Source of the DNA: Pseudotamlana agarivorans | GTDB lineage: Bacteria > Bacteroidota > Bacteroidia > Flavobacteriales > Flavobacteriaceae | Length of the DNA stretch: 64,000 bases | Direction: 5' to 3' | Assembly (NCBI RefSeq): GCF_018860245.1 | Contig: NZ_JAHKPD010000007.1 | Location: 1 to 64,000 of the forward strand | Part shown: piece after piece, positions 3,186 through 14,247 of the stretch | Position numbering within the stretch: position 1 is the first letter of the stretch | Layout: every line of letters starts with the position of its first letter | Position numbers and translations under genes: made by a program | The notes under the pieces: generated by a model | Told to the model about the DNA's origin: nothing | The model's input: only the letters and a program-made list of their open reading frames with translations | Database searches by the model: none

Positions 3186-4911
3186 AACAGTCAATATAAA
3201 TTTAGCAGGTATCTTTTTTCATATTGATGAAGACGCTTACTTAAAACTGCAAGGTTACTTAGAAGCCATAAAACGCTCCTTAGCAAACTCTCAGGGCAGC
3301 GATGAAATTATAGCTGACATTGAGGCCCGTATTGCCGAACTATTTAATGAACGTGTTCAAAACAACAAACAAGTTATTAGACTCAAGGAGGTTGATGAAG
3401 TGATTTCTATCATGGGACAACCTGAAGACTATGTCGTTGATGATGAAATTTTTGAAGATGAACCACATACCAATAGCAGTCAGAAAACCCATACTAAAAA
3501 GAAGTTATTCAGGGATGCTGATAATGCCTATATAAGTGGTGTTTCTTCTGGAGTCGCACATTATTTTGGTATTGATGCTATTTGGGTAAGATTGGCCTGG
3601 ATTCTTCTAGTTTTTGGATTAGGAACAGGCGTTTTACTATATATTCTGTTGTGGATTTTGGTGCCTGAAGCTAAAACTACGGCCGAGAAAATTATGATGA
3701 CTGGTGAGCCTGTGAACATTAGCAACATTGAAAAAAAAATAAAAGACGGCTTTGAAAACGTGTCTCAAGCAGCAAAGAATGTCAGTGATTCGGTTTCTCA
3801 AGCAGCAAAAAATGTAGATTTTAAAAAAAGCACTAATTCCATAAAATCAACGTCAAGAACATTTTTCGATAGTCTTGCCGATGCCGTGATGTTACTTTTT
3901 AAAATATTCTCCAAGTTTATTGGTATACTACTTATATTTATTGGAGCGGTAACATTAATTGCTCTTATTATTAGCCTATTTTCGGTTGGCGTAGCCGATA
4001 TTATCCATATCCCTGGATTTGAAAATATCGATATATTAAATATTGGAAACACCCCTATTTGGTTAGTGTCGCTGTCTATATTTTTTGCGGTTGGTATCCC
4101 ATTCTTTTTCTTATTCTATTTAGGGCTAAAAATATTAATCAATAACTTAAAATCTATAGGCAACATTGCAAAATTCACCCTTTTAGGTGTATGGATTATT
4201 TCCATAATTTGTTTAATTGTATTCGGAATTAGACAAGCTAGCGAGCATGCTTTTAATGAGAGTTATATTAAAAAGACGGCCTTACCCATTACGGCGAAGG
4301 ACACCCTAATTGTAAAAATGGTACATAGCCATAAATTCAATTCAAAACGAAGACATAATGATTTTAAATTAACCCATGATGACCATGGAAACAAAGTATT
4401 GTACTCCTCTGATATTCGAGTTATGGTAAAATCTACCACCGATACCATCGCCACTTTATCAGTAATAAAAAATGCCGATGGCCGAAGTTTTGACGCCGCC
4501 ATTGCACGCGCTAAAAACATCGATTATCATTATGCATTTACCAATGGTACTTTGCTTCTAGATTCCTACTTAACTACAAATGCTAAAAATAAATTTAGCG
4601 ATCAAGAAGTAGATCTTGTTCTATATCTACCAGAAAATACCGTAGTATATTTTAATAGTAACACTAAAGATTTTATTCATTACAGAACGCATGATGACCA
4701 TCTTGTTTCCAGCAAAAACACCAATCATTTTATAAAAATATTAGATAACAACTCGAAATGCTTAGACTGTCCAGATTGGGAAGAAGATGACATCAATATC
4801 GAGGTGAGCACCCCCGAAATTAAAATTGATAACAACGGCATAAAAGTAGATTCTGATGAGATAAAAATTAACATCAATAGCGAAGGCATCAACATCAAAT
4901 CAAACCATTAA
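3178..4911 (+). CDS. PspC domain membrane protein
   Basis: This 577-residue protein starts with an N-terminal cytosolic domain (about 1-90, helical, with IIADIEARIAELF) seen in Bacteroidota PspC proteins. A PspC domain follows at about 109-165 (AYISGVSSGVAHYFGID, then a hydrophobic segment ending LWILVPEA). Next come an amphipathic linker with two SQAAKNV copies and three or four membrane helices between about 238 and 350. A periplasmic beta-rich C-terminal domain ends in alternating short strands (EIKIDNNGIKVDSDEIKI). PspC proteins take part in envelope stress responses. The preceding PadR and the following toastrack lipoprotein support a three-gene stress module. Confidence 0.88.
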   Translation: MNKTVNINLAGIFFHIDEDAYLKLQGYLEAIKRSLANSQGSDEIIADIEARIAELFNERVQNNKQVIRLKEVDEVISIMGQPEDYVVDDEIFEDEPHTNSSQKTHTKKKLFRDADNAYISGVSSGVAHYFGIDAIWVRLAWILLVFGLGTGVLLYILLWILVPEAKTTAEKIMMTGEPVNISNIEKKIKDGFENVSQAAKNVSDSVSQAAKNVDFKKSTNSIKSTSRTFFDSLADAVMLLFKIFSKFIGILLIFIGAVTLIALIISLFSVGVADIIHIPGFENIDILNIGNTPIWLVSLSIFFAVGIPFFFLFYLGLKILINNLKSIGNIAKFTLLGVWIISIICLIVFGIRQASEHAFNESYIKKTALPITAKDTLIVKMVHSHKFNSKRRHNDFKLTHDDHGNKVLYSSDIRVMVKSTTDTIATLSVIKNADGRSFDAAIARAKNIDYHYAFTNGTLLLDSYLTTNAKNKFSDQEVDLVLYLPENTVVYFNSNTKDFIHYRTHDDHLVSSKNTNHFIKILDNNSKCLDCPDWEEDDINIEVSTPEIKIDNNGIKVDSDEIKININSEGINIKSNH

Positions 4912-6934: not shown

Positions 6935-9403
6935 CTAATTTTTAATTATACGCTTTGTTACAGCATTATCTTTACCTGTAAGTCTGAATATATACATTCC
7001 AGACTTTAGGCTTGAAATATCAATTGAATCACCCTGTATCGCATGATTTAAAATAACCTTTCCAACTTGATCATAAACCGTTAACATATCATAACCATCG
7101 GCACCACTAATATTAACAGTATTAACCGCTGGGTTTGGCCATAATTTTACAGCAGCTGCGGCTTCGGCGCCATTTTTAGAGCTTCCTGATTTAGATGTTG
7201 CTGAACTTGCATATCCAAAAACTCTAAGTTCTTCAACACTTGTCCAGTCACCTGAATAACCATCGGCTCCAGTAATCGTAATTCTTACGTATCTGGCATC
7301 AATTTCACTAAATGAATCTGCAATTGGGTCTGAATTAGTTCCCGCTGTTGCGTTATTAGTACGATCTACGATTTCAGTATAGCTACTACCATCGGCTGAA
7401 GCTTCGATAGTATATTGGTAAGCACGGTCTTTAAAACAAATTACTTCAGTACTATTAATGGTATAAAGCCCTTCTAAATCGACAACTACCCATTCTGGAA
7501 ACCCTTCAGCAGACCATCTTGAATCTGCATCACCATCTACTAAATTAGACGCAGGATTACTAGATTGTTCTTCAGAAGAAGACACTGATTTCTCTAAAGC
7601 TACATTTGTAGATTCTACTGGTTCTGAAGACCCACTTACTGTTACAGATGTAGTATCTGTATAATCGCCATCTTCGGTTGTTACCGTAATTGTCGCAGAA
7701 CCTTCTGATATGGCTGTTACGACACCATTTGAATTTACGGTCGCTACAGAAGTATTACTACTGCTATAACTTACATCCTTATTTGAAGCATCACTTGGGC
7801 TTACAGATACAGAAAGTGCTTCTGTATTACCTGCATTTAAAGAAATGCTTGATGGTGATAATGATACTGAAGTTACATCAACCGTAGTTGGCGTTCCTGC
7901 TTCACCGAATACACGCAACTCTAATAAACTCACCCAGCTACCTGTGTATGAATCGGCGCCAGTAACTGTAATTTTCACATATCTCGCATTGACACTATCG
8001 AAGGCATCAATAATTGGACTTGAAGCCGTTCCAGGCGTTGAATTATTACTTCTATTTACAACCTCAGTATAGGACCCATTTTCCGAATTAGACACAGAAA
8101 TGGTATATTGATAAGCACGATCACTGTAGCATACTAATTCTGTGCTTTCTAATGAAAACGCAGATCCTAAATCGATTGTAGCCGATTGAGGATAACCTGA
8201 AACAGACCATCGTGATCCTGTATCACCATCCACTAAATTCGAAACAACATTATCGCCATCGGCAGAACCGGTACCTGAAATCGTTTTATTCAAGGCTAAA
8301 TTATCACCTGTAGAAGGCGCCACAACAGAAACTTCCATAGTATCCGTATAATTTCCATCTGCAGTGGTAACGGTAATGGTAGCCGTTCCTGCTGCGTTTC
8401 CTGATACTACACCTGTCGAACTTACAGATGCTACTGAAGCATTACTTGTACTGTAACTTACACTTTTATTTGATGCATCTGAAGGACTTACTGAAGCCGA
8501 CAATTCTTGAGTACTTCCTAATGAAATACTTGCCGAACTAGGTGATAATGAAACTCCTGAAACAGCCACTGGATCTGGGTCTGGATCTACTACTCCACCA
8601 CCATGCACCACAGCATAGTCATAAACGTAAACCTCACCATAATTATCTGGGTTATCAGTTTCGTCACCTTCTTTATCTGGATTACTTTGGGTATAGTTAC
8701 CAACTTTAAAGTACGTTTCATCGTAACTTAAATCCATAAGCACCTCATTACCGTCATCTTTCACTAAATACTGAGAAGCGTTTCCGCTATTGTAGGCATC
8801 TAATAAGTTGCCATCTTCAGAATAGTAACAGTAATGTTTACCATCTTCAACTAAGAAAATAACTTCGTGTTTATCGCCTAAGTTATAATCAGATTTAATC
8901 GTAACATCGTCTCTTAATTTCCCACCGTTAAAGGATAAAAATAAGTGTGAACCTTCTAAACGCATCACCATAGAGTCATCGATACCATCATCCTTATTAC
9001 CATGAATTTGTGTAGCCACTAAGTGTGACTTCACAATAGGTAAGTGTGTAATGGCCTGTTCTACATAAATCATGTGAGATCCATCGGTTGTCCAGTAAAT
9101 ATCTTTACTACCGTCTGCTTCTCTTTCACGTAGTTCAGAACGAATATAGCTTGAATTTGGAGTCGTACCATTGTCGCTACGAATAGGTGCAAAAAACACC
9201 AAGGCATCTCCGGCATCACTTACATGGAAGAATTCATTATTTGGTTCATCACAAAGTGTTTTGTCTTCTACACCATCTGGATACGTAATTTTCCATTGGT
9301 TACAGTTTGACATAAGATCTGAGGGGATTTGTGCCGAAGCGAACTGAAAAGCTCCTAAGAACACAGCGCTAAGCGCTAATCGGTTAAATAAAAAATGTTT
9401 CAT
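6935..9403 (-). CDS. Secreted PL7 alginate lyase with Ig-like, F5/8C and T9SS domains
   Basis: This 822-residue enzyme depolymerises alginate by beta-elimination outside the cell. A signal peptide ends at about A24/Q25. The PL7 domain (about 26-268) has the family motifs RSELRE (88-93), QIH (132-134) and YFKVGNYTQS (231-240), so the catalytic His, Tyr, Arg and Gln are in place. QIH, rather than QVH, is generally linked to cleavage of G-containing blocks. A BIG2 Ig-like domain (about 275-360), an F5/8 type C carbohydrate-binding-like domain (365-500), a second BIG2 (505-588), a second F5/8C (599-730) and a T9SS sorting tail (752-822, WPNPAVN to KRIIKN) follow. The whole mature protein is closely related to the last 800 residues of the next gene. 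Confidence 0.95.
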   Translation of the reverse strand: MKHFLFNRLALSAVFLGAFQFASAQIPSDLMSNCNQWKITYPDGVEDKTLCDEPNNEFFHVSDAGDALVFFAPIRSDNGTTPNSSYIRSELREREADGSKDIYWTTDGSHMIYVEQAITHLPIVKSHLVATQIHGNKDDGIDDSMVMRLEGSHLFLSFNGGKLRDDVTIKSDYNLGDKHEVIFLVEDGKHYCYYSEDGNLLDAYNSGNASQYLVKDDGNEVLMDLSYDETYFKVGNYTQSNPDKEGDETDNPDNYGEVYVYDYAVVHGGGVVDPDPDPVAVSGVSLSPSSASISLGSTQELSASVSPSDASNKSVSYSTSNASVASVSSTGVVSGNAAGTATITVTTADGNYTDTMEVSVVAPSTGDNLALNKTISGTGSADGDNVVSNLVDGDTGSRWSVSGYPQSATIDLGSAFSLESTELVCYSDRAYQYTISVSNSENGSYTEVVNRSNNSTPGTASSPIIDAFDSVNARYVKITVTGADSYTGSWVSLLELRVFGEAGTPTTVDVTSVSLSPSSISLNAGNTEALSVSVSPSDASNKDVSYSSSNTSVATVNSNGVVTAISEGSATITVTTEDGDYTDTTSVTVSGSSEPVESTNVALEKSVSSSEEQSSNPASNLVDGDADSRWSAEGFPEWVVVDLEGLYTINSTEVICFKDRAYQYTIEASADGSSYTEIVDRTNNATAGTNSDPIADSFSEIDARYVRITITGADGYSGDWTSVEELRVFGYASSATSKSGSSKNGAEAAAAVKLWPNPAVNTVNISGADGYDMLTVYDQVGKVILNHAIQGDSIDISSLKSGMYIFRLTGKDNAVTKRIIKN

Positions 9404-9464
9404 TTAGTTTAATTTGTTAATTAATAAAATGGTTTAATTGGTAGATCACTTTGGTGTGTCAATC

Positions 9465-9474
9465 TGGTTAACCA
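9465..9474. promoter_or_regulatory. TGGTTAACCA palindrome, probable operator (PL7 gene)
   Basis: This perfect 10-bp palindrome lies about 66 bp before the PL7 ATG and fits the TGGTnnACCA half-site pattern of FadR-type GntR regulators. It overlaps TTATTTTG on the minus strand, which is one base from the -7 consensus, so a bound repressor would block the promoter. Extra TTGGT half-sites lie between it and the gene. The same sequence at the same distance precedes the PL6-PL7 gene. No regulator gene is adjacent. Confidence 0.55.
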
Positions 9475-9669: not shown

Positions 9670-9704
9670 AAAAAAAGGCAGATGAATTTAATTCATCTGC
9701 CTTT
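9670..9704 (-). terminator. Terminator of the PL6-PL7 lyase gene
   Basis: The arms AAAGGCAGATGAAT (9674-9687) and ATTCATCTGCCTTT (9691-9704) form a perfect 14-bp stem with loop TTA. The A-run at 9670-9676 gives the U-run in the leftward direction. The stem differs in sequence from the terminator of the paralogous gene. Confidence 0.88.
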
Positions 9705-9724: not shown

Positions 9725-12700
9725 CTACCTCTTGATAATACGCTTGGTCACTGCTTGTTCTTTTCCTGAAAGTCTGAAAATATACATTCCAGATTTAAAG
9801 TTAGAGATATCTACCGTTTCACCTTGAATAGGTTGATTTAAAATAACCTTACCTACTTGATCATATACGGTTAACATATCAAAACCACCAGCACCACTAA
9901 TATTCACAGTATTTACTGCTGGGTTTGGCCATAACGATACGGCTTCCGCGACAGCGCTATTAACTTTTGAAGCACCTTCTTTTGAAGTTGATGAACTCTC
10001 GTATCCAAAAACTCTAAGTTCTTCAATACTTGCCCAGTCTCCTGAGTAATCATTAGCTCCAGTAATTGTAATTCTTACGTATCTGGCGTCTATCTCGCTA
10101 AAAGAATCTGCTATTGGCTCGGAATTAGATCCGGCTGTTGAATTACTTGTACGGTCTACGATTTCAGTATAATTACTACCATCAGTTGAAGCCTCAATAG
10201 TGTACTGATAAGCACGATCCTTAAAACAAATTACTTCAGTACTATTTATAGTATAAAGTCCTTCTAAATCTACCACAACCCACTCCGGATATCCTTCAGC
10301 AGACCATCTTGAATCTGCATCACCATCTACTAAATTAGACGCTGGATTACTAGATTGTTCTTCAGAAGAAGATACTGATTTCTCTAAAGCTATGTTTGTC
10401 GATTCTTGAGGCTCTGAGGTTCCATTAACTGTAACAGATGTTAAGTCGGTATGATTTCCGTCTTCAGTGGTAACTGTAATCGTAGCAGAGCCTTCTGATA
10501 TTGCGCTTACTACGCCGTTAGAATTCACAGTCGCTACAGAAGTATTGCTACTGCTATAACTTACGTTTTGGTTGGTTGCATCACTAGGATTAATAGACAC
10601 TGTTAGAGCTTCCGTTTCACCTTCATCTAACGAAATACTAGAAGGTGATAAAGCTACTGAACTCACATCTACGGTAGAAGGTGCACCTTCTCCTGCAAAT
10701 ACACTAAGTTCCAATAAACTTACCCAACTTCCTGTATATGAATCGGCGCCGGTAACTGTAATTTTCACATACCTAGCATTAACACTATCAAATGTGTCGA
10801 TAATAGGGCTTGATGTAGAACCCGGTGTTGAATTATTACTTCTATCTACAACCTCGGTGTATGTTCCATTTTCAGAATCAGACACAGAAATAGTGTATTG
10901 GTAAGCGCGATCGCTGTAACATACTAATTCTGTACTTCCCAAGGTTAATTGTGCACCTAAATCAATAGTTGCCGACTGAGGAAAACCTGAAACAGACCAC
11001 CTTGTACCAGTATTGCCATCAACTAAGTTTGCAACGACATTGTCGCCATCTGCAGAACCCGTTCCAGACACTGATTTGTTTAACGCTAAATTATCACCAT
11101 CTGAAGGGTTTGACGCTTCTAAAACCGTAATTTCTACCGTATCGGTATAATTTCCATCTGAAGTAGAAACTGTAATTGTTGCAGTACCTTCAGAATTTGC
11201 TGTAACTACTCCGCTTGAGCTAACTGAAGCCACTGAAGCATTACTTGAACTATAATTTACACTTGTATTCGAAGCGTTTGAAGGACTAACTGTAGCCGAC
11301 AATTCTTGAGTACCTCCTATAGAAAGGCTTGCTGAACTAGGTGAAATAGAAACACCAGTAACGGCTACAGGGTCTGTTCCCCCACCATCATTATCGCCGT
11401 GCTGTACAGTAAAATCATAAACTAAAACTTCACCGTAGTTATCAGGATCGTCTGTTTCATCGCCTTCTTTTTCAGGATTACTTTGTGTATAGTTACCAAC
11501 TTTAAAGTAAGTTTCATCATAATTTAAATCCATCACATAATCATTCCCATCGGCTTGTACTAAATATGATGATGCATTACCACTGTTGTAAGCGTTTAAT
11601 AAATTGCCATCTTCAGCATAGTAGCAATAGTGTTTACCATCGACAACAAGGAAAATAACTTCATGAATATCTCCTAAATTATAATCTGTTTTAATAGTAA
11701 CATCATCTCTTAACTTACCACCATTAAATGATAAAAACAAGTGAGAATCTTCTAAACGCATCACCATAGAATCATCTATTCCATCATCTTTATTACCATG
11801 AATTTGTGTAGCAACTAGATGTGATTTCACAATGGGTAGGTGGGTAATGGCTTGCTTCACATATAACATATGAGATCCTTCTGTAGTCCAATAGATATCT
11901 GAATTACCATCTTCTGTTCTTTCTCTCAGTTCAGAACGAATATAATCCGAATTAGGCGTAGTTCCGTTATCACTTCTTACTGGCGCACGAAAAACAATGG
12001 CATCTTTGCTATCATTCACAAAGAAAAATTCGTTATCTTTTTCACATAACTGCTTTTCTTCTACACCATCTGGATAAGTAATTTTCCATTGGTCACAGTT
12101 TTCCATTAAATCTGAAGGATATTCTGCTGTACCACCACCGGTAGAACCACCTGTTACCGTTACCGAAATTGTATCGGTAAAAGAACCATCGTCGGTAGTT
12201 ACCGTTACCGTTGCGCTTCCTGCAGCTTGAGCAGAAACCTCTCCATCACTATTAACGCTCGCTATGGCGTTGTTACTACTATTATAACTTACATCTTTAT
12301 TAGTTGCATCTGAAGGACTTACCGTTGCATTCAATGATTCCGTTCCTCCAACAGTTAAGTTTATAGAACTAGTAGAGAATGAAACACCTGTTACGTCTAT
12401 GTTTGCAGATGCCATACCTTCCTGGCTCACGTTAATCGTTTGATTTGAAACACCAGAACCACTTACTGTAACAGTTCCTGTTCGCTCTGACTCACTCGTG
12501 TTTTCTGAAACTGTAATTGAAATACTTCCATTTCCAGAACCAGAAGCTGGTGAAATAGAAATCCAAGATTGGTTATCTGTTACCGACCAACTTACATTAG
12601 ACGTTACATTAACTGTTTTTGAAGATCCTTCTGAAGCGAAATCACTAACAGAAGATACCGTTAAATAATCTCCAGATGAATCATTTCCTGAGGCATCTAA

Positions 12701-14176
12701 AAAACTAGCTCCAACAGAAACGCCAACCATACCATTGGTATGTGGATAAAAAGTTGCTGAACCACTACCACCACTAACTTCATGAGCACCAGCATCCATG
12801 TTAGAATTTGGTCTTGTACGTCCTTCAACATCATTATTAACAGTAGTACTATAACCACTCCCTGCTGCATTTGCTGCTGGGCCCAAACCACTAGGTTTGA
12901 AGATTTCACCACTTGCAGAAAAATTGGCATTCGCCTCAGTAATTCCAGAATCCGAAATCCCTATTGAAGCACCTCCAAAAACATTCCCTTCATACGTCAT
13001 ACCTTGACCAGTACCAGAAATATCTCCACTAACAATATCAGAGCCTGTACTATATACCACGTTATGCGCTAAAACCCCTGTTGGGTCATAACTAGAACGA
13101 TCATTATAATAAATTGGTGACTCAACATTATATAATGTATTAAATGCAACTACAATACCATCAACTTTTTGGTAACCATTAGTAATACCACCAGAAGTAT
13201 CCGATCCACCAACTAAGGTAATTCCGTTGTTCCATTTATCACCCGAACTAATAACATCTTGAATGTAGTTATTCGTAATTACGTGGTAACTATCTGTGAT
13301 TCTAATACCACCAGTACCTTCAATATTTTCACCTAAAAAATAATTTCCATCTACGGTAGCACGAGCACCATGTCGCATAACTAAAGACCCTCTACAGGCT
13401 CTAAAAGTATTGTTACGGTAGGTGTTATCTGCACTTTTGTTAGTTATAATTTCATTCTCACCATCAGCCTTGTAGAAATAGTTCCCTTCTACAGTAACAC
13501 TAGCGCTTTTATCTTGAAATTCGCTAGTCCCCACACGAATGGTTTCACTATCACCAGAATGTGTTGTAGAGGGGTCACGTTTTATAAAATTGAAGAAATA
13601 ATTATTTCTAATAATATGCCCAACTGGATTAAAGTCGTTATACTCTAACTCTACTAGTACTAAGGCACCAGGGCTATTTTTATTTAGGAATGAACAATTT
13701 TCAACCACATTGTTTGTACCATAAAGCACGATCCAACGGTGCTTGTCAGTTCCGCTAGGTGTTAAGTTGTTAAAACCGCAGTTTCTTATGGTCGAATTGT
13801 TCGCATAAGCGCTACTCTTTCTAAATTGAATGTGATTATTACTTCCTGGCCCACCGTTCCAGTAAAAGCCATCAATAATCACGTAGTCTCCAGAAACATC
13901 CATATTGGTTAATCCTGTAAAAATAACGCCACCAGGTGTTTCCGCTCTCAGAGTTATTGGGTTGGAAGCGGTTCCATTTGCGGTAAAGTTGATTCGTTGT
14001 TCACTACTGTATGAACCGTTGGTCCATGTTACCACATCTCCAGGAGAAAGGCTTAAATCGTTAAACTCATCGGCTGAGCTTACCGTATAATCTGCGCCAA
14101 AGGTTTGGAGGGCGCACAAAAACGTCATTACGCACATGGCCATACGGCTCATGCGTTTAAATAAAACATGTTTCAT
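9725..14176 (-). CDS. Bifunctional PL6-PL7 alginate lyase, multidomain, T9SS-secreted
   Basis: This 1483-residue secreted protein joins two alginate lyase families. After a signal peptide (about 1-28) comes a PL6 (chondroitinase B-like) right-handed beta-helix at about 29-462. Its TNKSADNTYRNN and SLVMRHGARATVDGNYF segments contain the Lys and Arg expected to catalyse elimination. Next are a BACON domain (about 505-587), a BIG2 domain (590-680) and a full PL7 domain (686-925) with RSELRE, QIH and YFKVGNYTQS. The rest is BIG2, F5/8C, BIG2, F5/8C and a T9SS tail (1410-1483), in the same order as the neighbouring PL7 protein. PL6 enzymes often act on M or MG stretches and QIH-type PL7 on G-containing blocks, so the protein may attack mixed alginate. 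It was probably formed by fusion of a PL6-BACON-BIG2 unit to a copy of the PL7 gene. Confidence 0.93.
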   Translation of the reverse strand: MKHVLFKRMSRMAMCVMTFLCALQTFGADYTVSSADEFNDLSLSPGDVVTWTNGSYSSEQRINFTANGTASNPITLRAETPGGVIFTGLTNMDVSGDYVIIDGFYWNGGPGSNNHIQFRKSSAYANNSTIRNCGFNNLTPSGTDKHRWIVLYGTNNVVENCSFLNKNSPGALVLVELEYNDFNPVGHIIRNNYFFNFIKRDPSTTHSGDSETIRVGTSEFQDKSASVTVEGNYFYKADGENEIITNKSADNTYRNNTFRACRGSLVMRHGARATVDGNYFLGENIEGTGGIRITDSYHVITNNYIQDVISSGDKWNNGITLVGGSDTSGGITNGYQKVDGIVVAFNTLYNVESPIYYNDRSSYDPTGVLAHNVVYSTGSDIVSGDISGTGQGMTYEGNVFGGASIGISDSGITEANANFSASGEIFKPSGLGPAANAAGSGYSTTVNNDVEGRTRPNSNMDAGAHEVSGGSGSATFYPHTNGMVGVSVGASFLDASGNDSSGDYLTVSSVSDFASEGSSKTVNVTSNVSWSVTDNQSWISISPASGSGNGSISITVSENTSESERTGTVTVSGSGVSNQTINVSQEGMASANIDVTGVSFSTSSINLTVGGTESLNATVSPSDATNKDVSYNSSNNAIASVNSDGEVSAQAAGSATVTVTTDDGSFTDTISVTVTGGSTGGGTAEYPSDLMENCDQWKITYPDGVEEKQLCEKDNEFFFVNDSKDAIVFRAPVRSDNGTTPNSDYIRSELRERTEDGNSDIYWTTEGSHMLYVKQAITHLPIVKSHLVATQIHGNKDDGIDDSMVMRLEDSHLFLSFNGGKLRDDVTIKTDYNLGDIHEVIFLVVDGKHYCYYAEDGNLLNAYNSGNASSYLVQADGNDYVMDLNYDETYFKVGNYTQSNPEKEGDETDDPDNYGEVLVYDFTVQHGDNDGGGTDPVAVTGVSISPSSASLSIGGTQELSATVSPSNASNTSVNYSSSNASVASVSSSGVVTANSEGTATITVSTSDGNYTDTVEITVLEASNPSDGDNLALNKSVSGTGSADGDNVVANLVDGNTGTRWSVSGFPQSATIDLGAQLTLGSTELVCYSDRAYQYTISVSDSENGTYTEVVDRSNNSTPGSTSSPIIDTFDSVNARYVKITVTGADSYTGSWVSLLELSVFAGEGAPSTVDVSSVALSPSSISLDEGETEALTVSINPSDATNQNVSYSSSNTSVATVNSNGVVSAISEGSATITVTTEDGNHTDLTSVTVNGTSEPQESTNIALEKSVSSSEEQSSNPASNLVDGDADSRWSAEGYPEWVVVDLEGLYTINSTEVICFKDRAYQYTIEASTDGSNYTEIVDRTSNSTAGSNSEPIADSFSEIDARYVRITITGANDYSGDWASIEELRVFGYESSSTSKEGASKVNSAVAEAVSLWPNPAVNTVNISGAGGFDMLTVYDQVGKVILNQPIQGETVDISNFKSGMYIFRLSGKEQAVTKRIIKR

Positions 14177-14237
14177 TTAGTTTAGTTTGTTAGTTTATAA
14201 TATGGTTTAATTGGTAAATCACTTTGGTATATCAATC

Positions 14238-14247
14238 TGGTTAACCA
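14238..14247. promoter_or_regulatory. TGGTTAACCA palindrome, probable operator (PL6-PL7 gene)
   Basis: This is the second copy of the perfect palindrome, again centred about 66 bp before the ATG and again overlapping a TTATTTTG -7-like box on the minus strand. The flanks CAATC and AAATAATC are also conserved. The pair suggests one regulator controls both lyases. Confidence 0.55.

Follow-up and report, generated by a model that had tools for sequence, protein, structure and literature searches.

A predicted secreted protein joining PL6 and PL7 alginate lyase domains in Pseudotamlana agarivorans, and its variants across Tamlana

Genes and domains at the locus

The 64,000-nucleotide stretch of Pseudotamlana agarivorans DNA analysed here (the window; RefSeq assembly GCF_018860245.1, contig NZ_JAHKPD010000007.1, positions 1 to 64,000) contains, at 9725-14176 of the minus strand, a gene whose product joins domains of two alginate lyase families, polysaccharide lyase (PL) families 6 and 7. 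The gene is a single uninterrupted open reading frame (ORF) of 1483 amino acids, with its stop codon inside these coordinates. Pfam places along the protein, in this order, PL6, BACON, Big_2, PL7, Big_2, F5/8C, Big_2, F5/8C and Por_Secre_tail domains, i.e., three Big_2 and two F5/8C (PF00754) modules. Chance can be excluded for both lyase profiles, given E-values of 1.9e-59 for PF14592 (PL6, residues 43-363) and 3.1e-28 for PF08787 (PL7, residues 694-926); the BACON match spans residues 529-586. Both the Pfam Por_Secre_tail (residues 1415-1481) and the NCBIfam tail TIGR04183 mark the protein as type A cargo of the type IX secretion system (T9SS). The F5/8C modules are related to family 32 carbohydrate-binding modules (CBMs), with PDB matches to the CBM32 of AlyQ (7d29, E 1e-10) and to YeCBM32 (2jd9, E 2e-10). 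These results bear out an earlier reading of this DNA made without database searches (the sequence-only reading), which had proposed PL6 and PL7 in one 1483-residue protein with the same order and number of domains (PL6, BACON, Ig-like, PL7, two Big_2-F5/8C pairs, T9SS tail). The PL7 motifs that it had named were located at residues 747 (RSELRE), 791 (QIH) and 890 (YFKVGNYTQ).

9725-14176, minus strand: PL6-BACON-Big_2-PL7-(Big_2-F5/8C)x2-T9SS gene (ORF list, Pfam, NCBIfam)
14093-14176, minus strand: predicted signal peptide, residues 1-28, MKHVLFKRMSRMAMCVMTFLCALQTFGA (read from the sequence by eye)
12647-14092, minus strand: PL6 beta-helix, residues 29-510, with R214, E240, E242, K247, R268, H269 and R292 (Pfam, alignment, fold)
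12407-12646, minus strand: BACON domain, residues 511-590 (Pfam)
12149-12400, minus strand: Big_2 a, residues 593-676 (Pfam)
12125-12148, minus strand: PL6/PL7 junction linker, GSTGGGTA and neighbours, also found in T. haliotis and Tamlana sp. I1
11387-12124, minus strand: PL7 of the AlyQ type, residues 685-930, with R747, R751, Q791, H793, Y890 and Y896 (Pfam, PDB relatives, fold)
11111-11371, minus strand: Big_2 b, residues 936-1022 (Pfam)
10688-11095, minus strand: F5/8C (CBM32-like) a, residues 1028-1163, resembling the AlyQ CBM32, 7d29 (Pfam, PDB relatives)
10442-10681, minus strand: Big_2 c, residues 1166-1245 (Pfam)
10001-10399, minus strand: F5/8C (CBM32-like) b, residues 1260-1392 (Pfam, PDB relatives)
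9728-9934, minus strand: T9SS type A sorting tail, residues 1415-1483 (Pfam, NCBIfam)

Catalytic residues and predicted folds

Family profiles, conserved residues and predicted folds support the presence, in a single predicted secreted chain, of two catalytic lyase domains that differ in fold. Among PDB entries, the PL6 part is related by sequence to 7o84 (E 4.5e-50), and its sequence matches alginate lyases (E 1e-40 to 1e-50) better than chondroitinase B (E 6e-19). Its K247, R268, H269, R214 and R292 are spaced identically to Lys-249, Arg-270, His-271, Arg-216 and Arg-294 of BcelPL6; across 18 PL6 domains, K247, R268, H269 and R292 are invariant, and R214 is nearly so. E240 and E242 stand at what we take to be the positions of the calcium ligands of chondroitinase B. 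The solved fold closest to the predicted PL6 fold is 7o7a (Z 49.1, root-mean-square deviation (rmsd) 2.2 over 399 residues, 31% identity).

The PL7 part is related by sequence to AlyQ (5xnr, E 1.4e-130). The conserved residues of the PL7 enzyme A1-II' are Arg146, Arg150, Gln189, Tyr278 and Tyr284 (PMC8286568), to which His191 was added from PDB titles; R747, R751, Q791, H793, Y890 and Y896 of the window protein have the spacing of Arg146, Arg150, Gln189, His191, Tyr278 and Tyr284. R747, Q791, H793, Y890 and Y896 are invariant among 15 PL7 domains, and the motifs RSELR, QIH and YFKxGxY are all present. The PL7 part failed in the joint AlphaFold model and was therefore modelled separately. Folded alone, it reached a mean predicted local distance difference test score (pLDDT) of 86.7 and Z 36.0 to AlyQ 5xnr (rmsd 2.1 over 246 residues, 70% identity). 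At the sequence level, catalytic residues have been lost from neither domain, a loss that the sequence-only reading had named as fatal to the proposal.

The same reading had held that PL6 and PL7 enzymes differ in fold and in preferred bonds. The difference in fold stands. The difference in bonds is less secure, since PL6_1 (PMC4954714) and PL7 (PMC8286568) each include enzymes of several specificities, and bond preference therefore cannot be deduced from family names. AlyQ acts on poly-G, poly-M and alginate (PMC5651945).

Several points weigh against two well-formed and active lyases. His-219 of BcelPL6 has no counterpart; judged by spacing, a Thr stands at its position. Outside PL6, the multi-domain AlphaFold model is of poor quality (mean pLDDT 61), and in this joint model PL6 itself is of middling confidence, with poor modelling beyond about residue 390. 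A two-lyase chain may, moreover, hold a dead domain, as in AlyA of Vibrio splendidus, only one of whose two lyase domains is active (PMC9781882). By analogy, one domain of the window protein might be active and the other serve mainly as an alginate-binding module. In our opinion this is improbable: the catalytic residues are kept in both domains, and between species PL6 (84-94% identity) and PL7 (82-89%) are as conserved as active stand-alone relatives.

A tandem PL7 paralogue

The next gene downstream, which the sequence-only reading had missed, is a paralogue of the PL7 half:

6935-9403, minus strand: tandem paralogue PL7-(Big_2-F5/8C)x2-T9SS, 822 amino acids, without PL6 (ORF list, Pfam, alignment)

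Its product is 80.5% identical to residues 682-1482 of the fused protein, i.e., over 800 amino acids, and the two genes have about 200 bp of upstream sequence in common. In the PL7 tree, the tandem PL7 pairs with that of Tamlana sp. 2_MG-2023 (95% identity, support 100/100).

The fusion might be a recent local accident, confined to this strain, in which the PL6 gene took up a copy of the tandem PL7 gene, or the ORF might be a chimera of the assembly. The adjacency of the two genes, their identity and their common upstream sequence would fit this explanation. The last F5/8C of the fused gene has its closest match in the tandem gene (91.5%), which also suggests some exchange between the copies. 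We nevertheless regard this explanation as very improbable: T. haliotis and Tamlana sp. I1, known from independent assemblies, have the same PL6-PL7 junction, and both forms of the explanation are rejected on that ground. The fused PL7, furthermore, shares 87-89% identity with the T. haliotis and T. agarivorans copies and only 82% with the PL7 of the adjacent tandem gene.

Architectures across Tamlana and relatives

When genome contigs were scanned for relatives of the PL6 part, matches came from Tamlana species and a Fulvivirga. Six genomes of the genus were searched, two of which are identical at the PL6 gene to named loci, and in all six PL6 shares its ORF with one or more PL7-type domains. 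The window protein reads PL6-BACON-Big-PL7-Big-CBM-Big-CBM-T9. Its T. haliotis orthologue (L016:5926-11007, 1694 amino acids) lies at the same locus and keeps this order and the PL6-PL7 junction. It differs in having, before the last CBM, a second PL7 of another type (PL7', nearest solved structure PyAly 7w13), which gives it three predicted catalytic domains, and in lacking a separate tandem PL7 gene. The protein of Tamlana sp. I1 (1358 amino acids) has the window architecture without BACON. T. agarivorans and genome G774 (1352 amino acids) read PL6-BACON-Big-CBM-Big-PL7'-CBM-T9, and Tamlana sp. 2_MG-2023 (1263 amino acids) reads PL6-BACON-Big-CBM-PL7'-CBM-T9. Thus, an AlyQ-type PL7 is found in the PL6 gene of the window genome, T. 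haliotis and I1, and the other three hold only PL7'. The assignment of PL7' as PL7-type is based on its match to PyAly 7w13 (E 1.2e-19) and on the motifs RSELR, QIH and YWKNGVYLQ; in the Pfam scan it passes the threshold only in T. haliotis, where it appears as a second PL7 stretch.

The Fulvivirga protein reads PL6-BACON-Big-CBM-Big-CBM-T9, with no PL7. Fulvivirga sp. M361 (L015:5857-9369) belongs to another family, and its PL6 is about 81% identical to that of the window. An identity this high in so distant a genus is suggestive of gene transfer. In genome G096 (L048:1829-5695), a DUF1349 module stands where Tamlana has PL7 or PL7'.

Origin of the join

The linker GSTGGG, followed 2 or 3 residues on by PSDLM, is common to the window, T. 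haliotis and I1, whereas the separate PL7 genes lack it; in the PL6 tree, I1 branches outside all other Tamlana (support 92/98). Given the shared linker and the outermost position of I1, one early join with later losses is the simplest reading. Most likely, judging from these sequences, a single joining of PL6 and PL7 preceded the divergence of I1 from the other Tamlana, and in some species the PL6 gene lost its PL7 afterwards. This history finds no help in the PL7 tree, in which a single clade of the three fused PL7 domains is not favoured, nor is it rejected (approximately unbiased test, p-AU 0.35). It should be noted that the PL7 and CBM trees are too poorly resolved to count fusion events.

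The modules of the window gene have mixed affinities. Its T9SS tail is most similar to the tail of the PL6 gene of 2_MG-2023 (87%), its last CBM to that of its own tandem neighbour, as given above, and its PL7 to a separate gene of T. agarivorans (89%). This mosaic points to exchange of modules between the fused and tandem genes. The idea that the fusion arose by simply copying the tandem gene was considered and is unsupported by the PL7 tree. In T. agarivorans, the Big_2 has mixed a-like and b-like positions, which is suggestive, though only that, of loss of PL7 through crossing over between Big_2 repeats. A broader proposal is that this is a lyase-swapping locus, in which a constant PL6 head and T9SS tail would enclose PL7, PL7' or both, with exchange with the tandem gene by recombination in the Big_2 and CBM32 modules. 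We judge this proposal as likely to be wrong as right; if true, the locus would be a natural example of an alginate-degrading machine tuned combinatorially from one species to the next.

Genomic setting and candidate regulon

Three further features lie outside the coding sequences, two upstream of the lyase genes and one downstream of the fused gene:

14212-14247, minus strand: operator-like repeat of three TGRTNNACCA units with a 13-bp period, 36 bp upstream of the start codon (ATG) of the fused gene (pattern search)
9439-9474, minus strand: the same operator-like TGRTNNACCA repeat, 36 bp upstream of the tandem gene's start codon (pattern search)
9674-9704, minus strand: terminator-like inverted repeat and T run, AAAGGCAGATGAATTAAATTCATCTGCCTTT, just past the stop of the fused gene, with approximate limits (read from the sequence)

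The TGRTNNACCA unit has what we take to be the general shape of operators of the GntR family. A genome-wide search for the repeat with at most two mismatches gave 41 matches versus 20 for the reversed control. All matches with at most one mismatch precede alginate genes, namely the two window genes, the C22 and C6 PL7 genes, a 306-amino-acid T9SS gene, and the C22 PL17-like and SusC genes; the pattern was built from the window copies, so the two window matches are not independent. C22, apart from the window, carries an alginate utilisation locus with PL6, heparinase II/III-type PL17-like, SusC/D and PL7 genes, regulators of the GntR-FCD and LacI types, and MFS and SDR genes. The shared upstream repeat suggests one regulon for the window lyase genes and the other alginate genes, and the C22 GntR gene may regulate the former through the candidate operator. 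AusR, the alginate repressor of Zobellia, is of the GntR type (PMC8286568).

Such repeats of 13-bp period (TGGTNNACCA), candidate operators of a GntR-type alginate regulator, also precede alginate genes at other places in the genome (L051:8158-8193 and 13926-13961; L090:2013-2035 and 4772-4794; L092:7571-7606; L093:5054-5076). A GntR-FCD gene lies at L090:13591-14307, and a 1337-amino-acid protein with PA14 and an Ig-like domain is encoded at L051:2949-6962, close to the alginate locus.

The neighbours of the window locus are housekeeping genes (thioredoxin reductase-like, PPIase, CNNM/CorC, LptC, pantothenate kinase), and T. haliotis and 2_MG-2023 retain the same flanking genes. In loci L013 and L016, the PL6 gene is preceded by a PhoD-like phosphatase gene (565-588 amino acids), which the window lacks; in L014, a 565-amino-acid ORF of similar size and place precedes the PL6 gene.

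Proposed function

The explanation that best accommodates the whole is, in our opinion with good confidence, a secreted, alginate-bound PL6+PL7 chain that feeds the alginate locus, is induced with it and descends from an early join. Both lyase domains would cut alginate by beta-elimination, the PL6 beta-helix with Lys/Arg chemistry and the PL7 jelly roll, of the AlyQ type, with His/Tyr chemistry. The two CBM32-like modules may hold the chain on alginate or on the wall of the alga, and the product oligosaccharides would feed the C22 alginate utilisation locus, with which the fused gene is probably induced through the shared GntR-type operator. Tamlana species carry differing combinations of lyases and binding modules at this locus.

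The chain could instead be a precursor, split once secreted into a PL6 and a PL7 enzyme; the join would then serve co-expression and not attack at one place. Sphingomonas A1-I (PL5+PL7) is processed in this way into A1-II and A1-III, AlyC8 (PL7+PL7) is not (PMC9781882). The PL6/PL7 junction is a glycine/serine-rich linker, and the PL7 half is also present alone, as a predicted secreted gene next door. The T9SS tail and binding modules are only C-terminal, however, and a freed PL6 would lose anchoring and binding; we consider processing rather unlikely, and prefer a chain that stays joined.

Alginate is a main cell-wall polymer of brown algae. The sister-species set of PL6+PL7', PL6+PL7 and PL6+PL7+PL7' provides material for testing whether linked lyases of different fold speed the breakdown of mixed alginate. 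The set is also informative on the evolutionary assembly of multi-domain enzymes, and leaves basic understanding unchanged.

Rarity and comparison with known enzymes

Relatives of the PL6 part occur in at least 93 of 397 Flavobacteriaceae genomes and an AlyQ-type PL7 in 11. Among the matches listed, the window genome and T. haliotis are the only two in which, by coordinates, both lie in one ORF; the genome-wide searches covered PL7 of the AlyQ type, and the count of joins is a lower bound. In a phylum-wide sample of 395 genomes, no PL7 was found in the larger PL6 ORFs examined. These ORFs of other Bacteroidota, considered as further fusions, carry DUF5123, DUF4957 or InlB-like repeats instead. 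A text search of the available papers found no published PL6-PL7 chain in this order.

Enzymes with a CBM32-PL7-GH16-CBM32-PL6 order have been published, one representative being active on alginate, and strains with types other than GH5+PL31 are primarily Actinomycetes (PMC13235733). The novelty is thus smaller than the sequence-only reading implied. Like the window protein, these PL7+GH16+PL6 enzymes combine PL6, PL7 and CBM32 in one chain; unlike it, they have the reverse order and an extra GH16 glucanase, with no mention of BACON, Big_2 or a T9SS tail. The window protein falls outside their class, its PL6 being N-terminal and the Pfam scan showing no GH16.

Two lyase domains per chain are also known from A1-I, a PL5+PL7 enzyme of Sphingomonas sp. 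A1, and from AlyC8, a PL7+PL7 enzyme of Vibrio sp. C42 whose domains have opposite specificity and act synergistically (PMC9781882). These differ from the window protein in their family pairs and, for A1-I, in being cut into two enzymes. AlyQ of Persicobacter sp. CCB-QB2 (5xnr) has the same type of PL7, joined to a CBM32 that resembles the F5/8C modules, but has one catalytic domain, a CBM16-CBM32-PL7 order and no PL6. Pedsa0632 of Pseudopedobacter saltans (7o7a), the closest solved fold to the PL6 part, is by contrast a single-domain enzyme, endolytic on poly-MG and poly-G (PMC4954714). Judged by its sequence, the window enzyme is a real, conserved and well-formed two-lyase chain of modest novelty, a new combination among known multi-catalytic alginate lyases.

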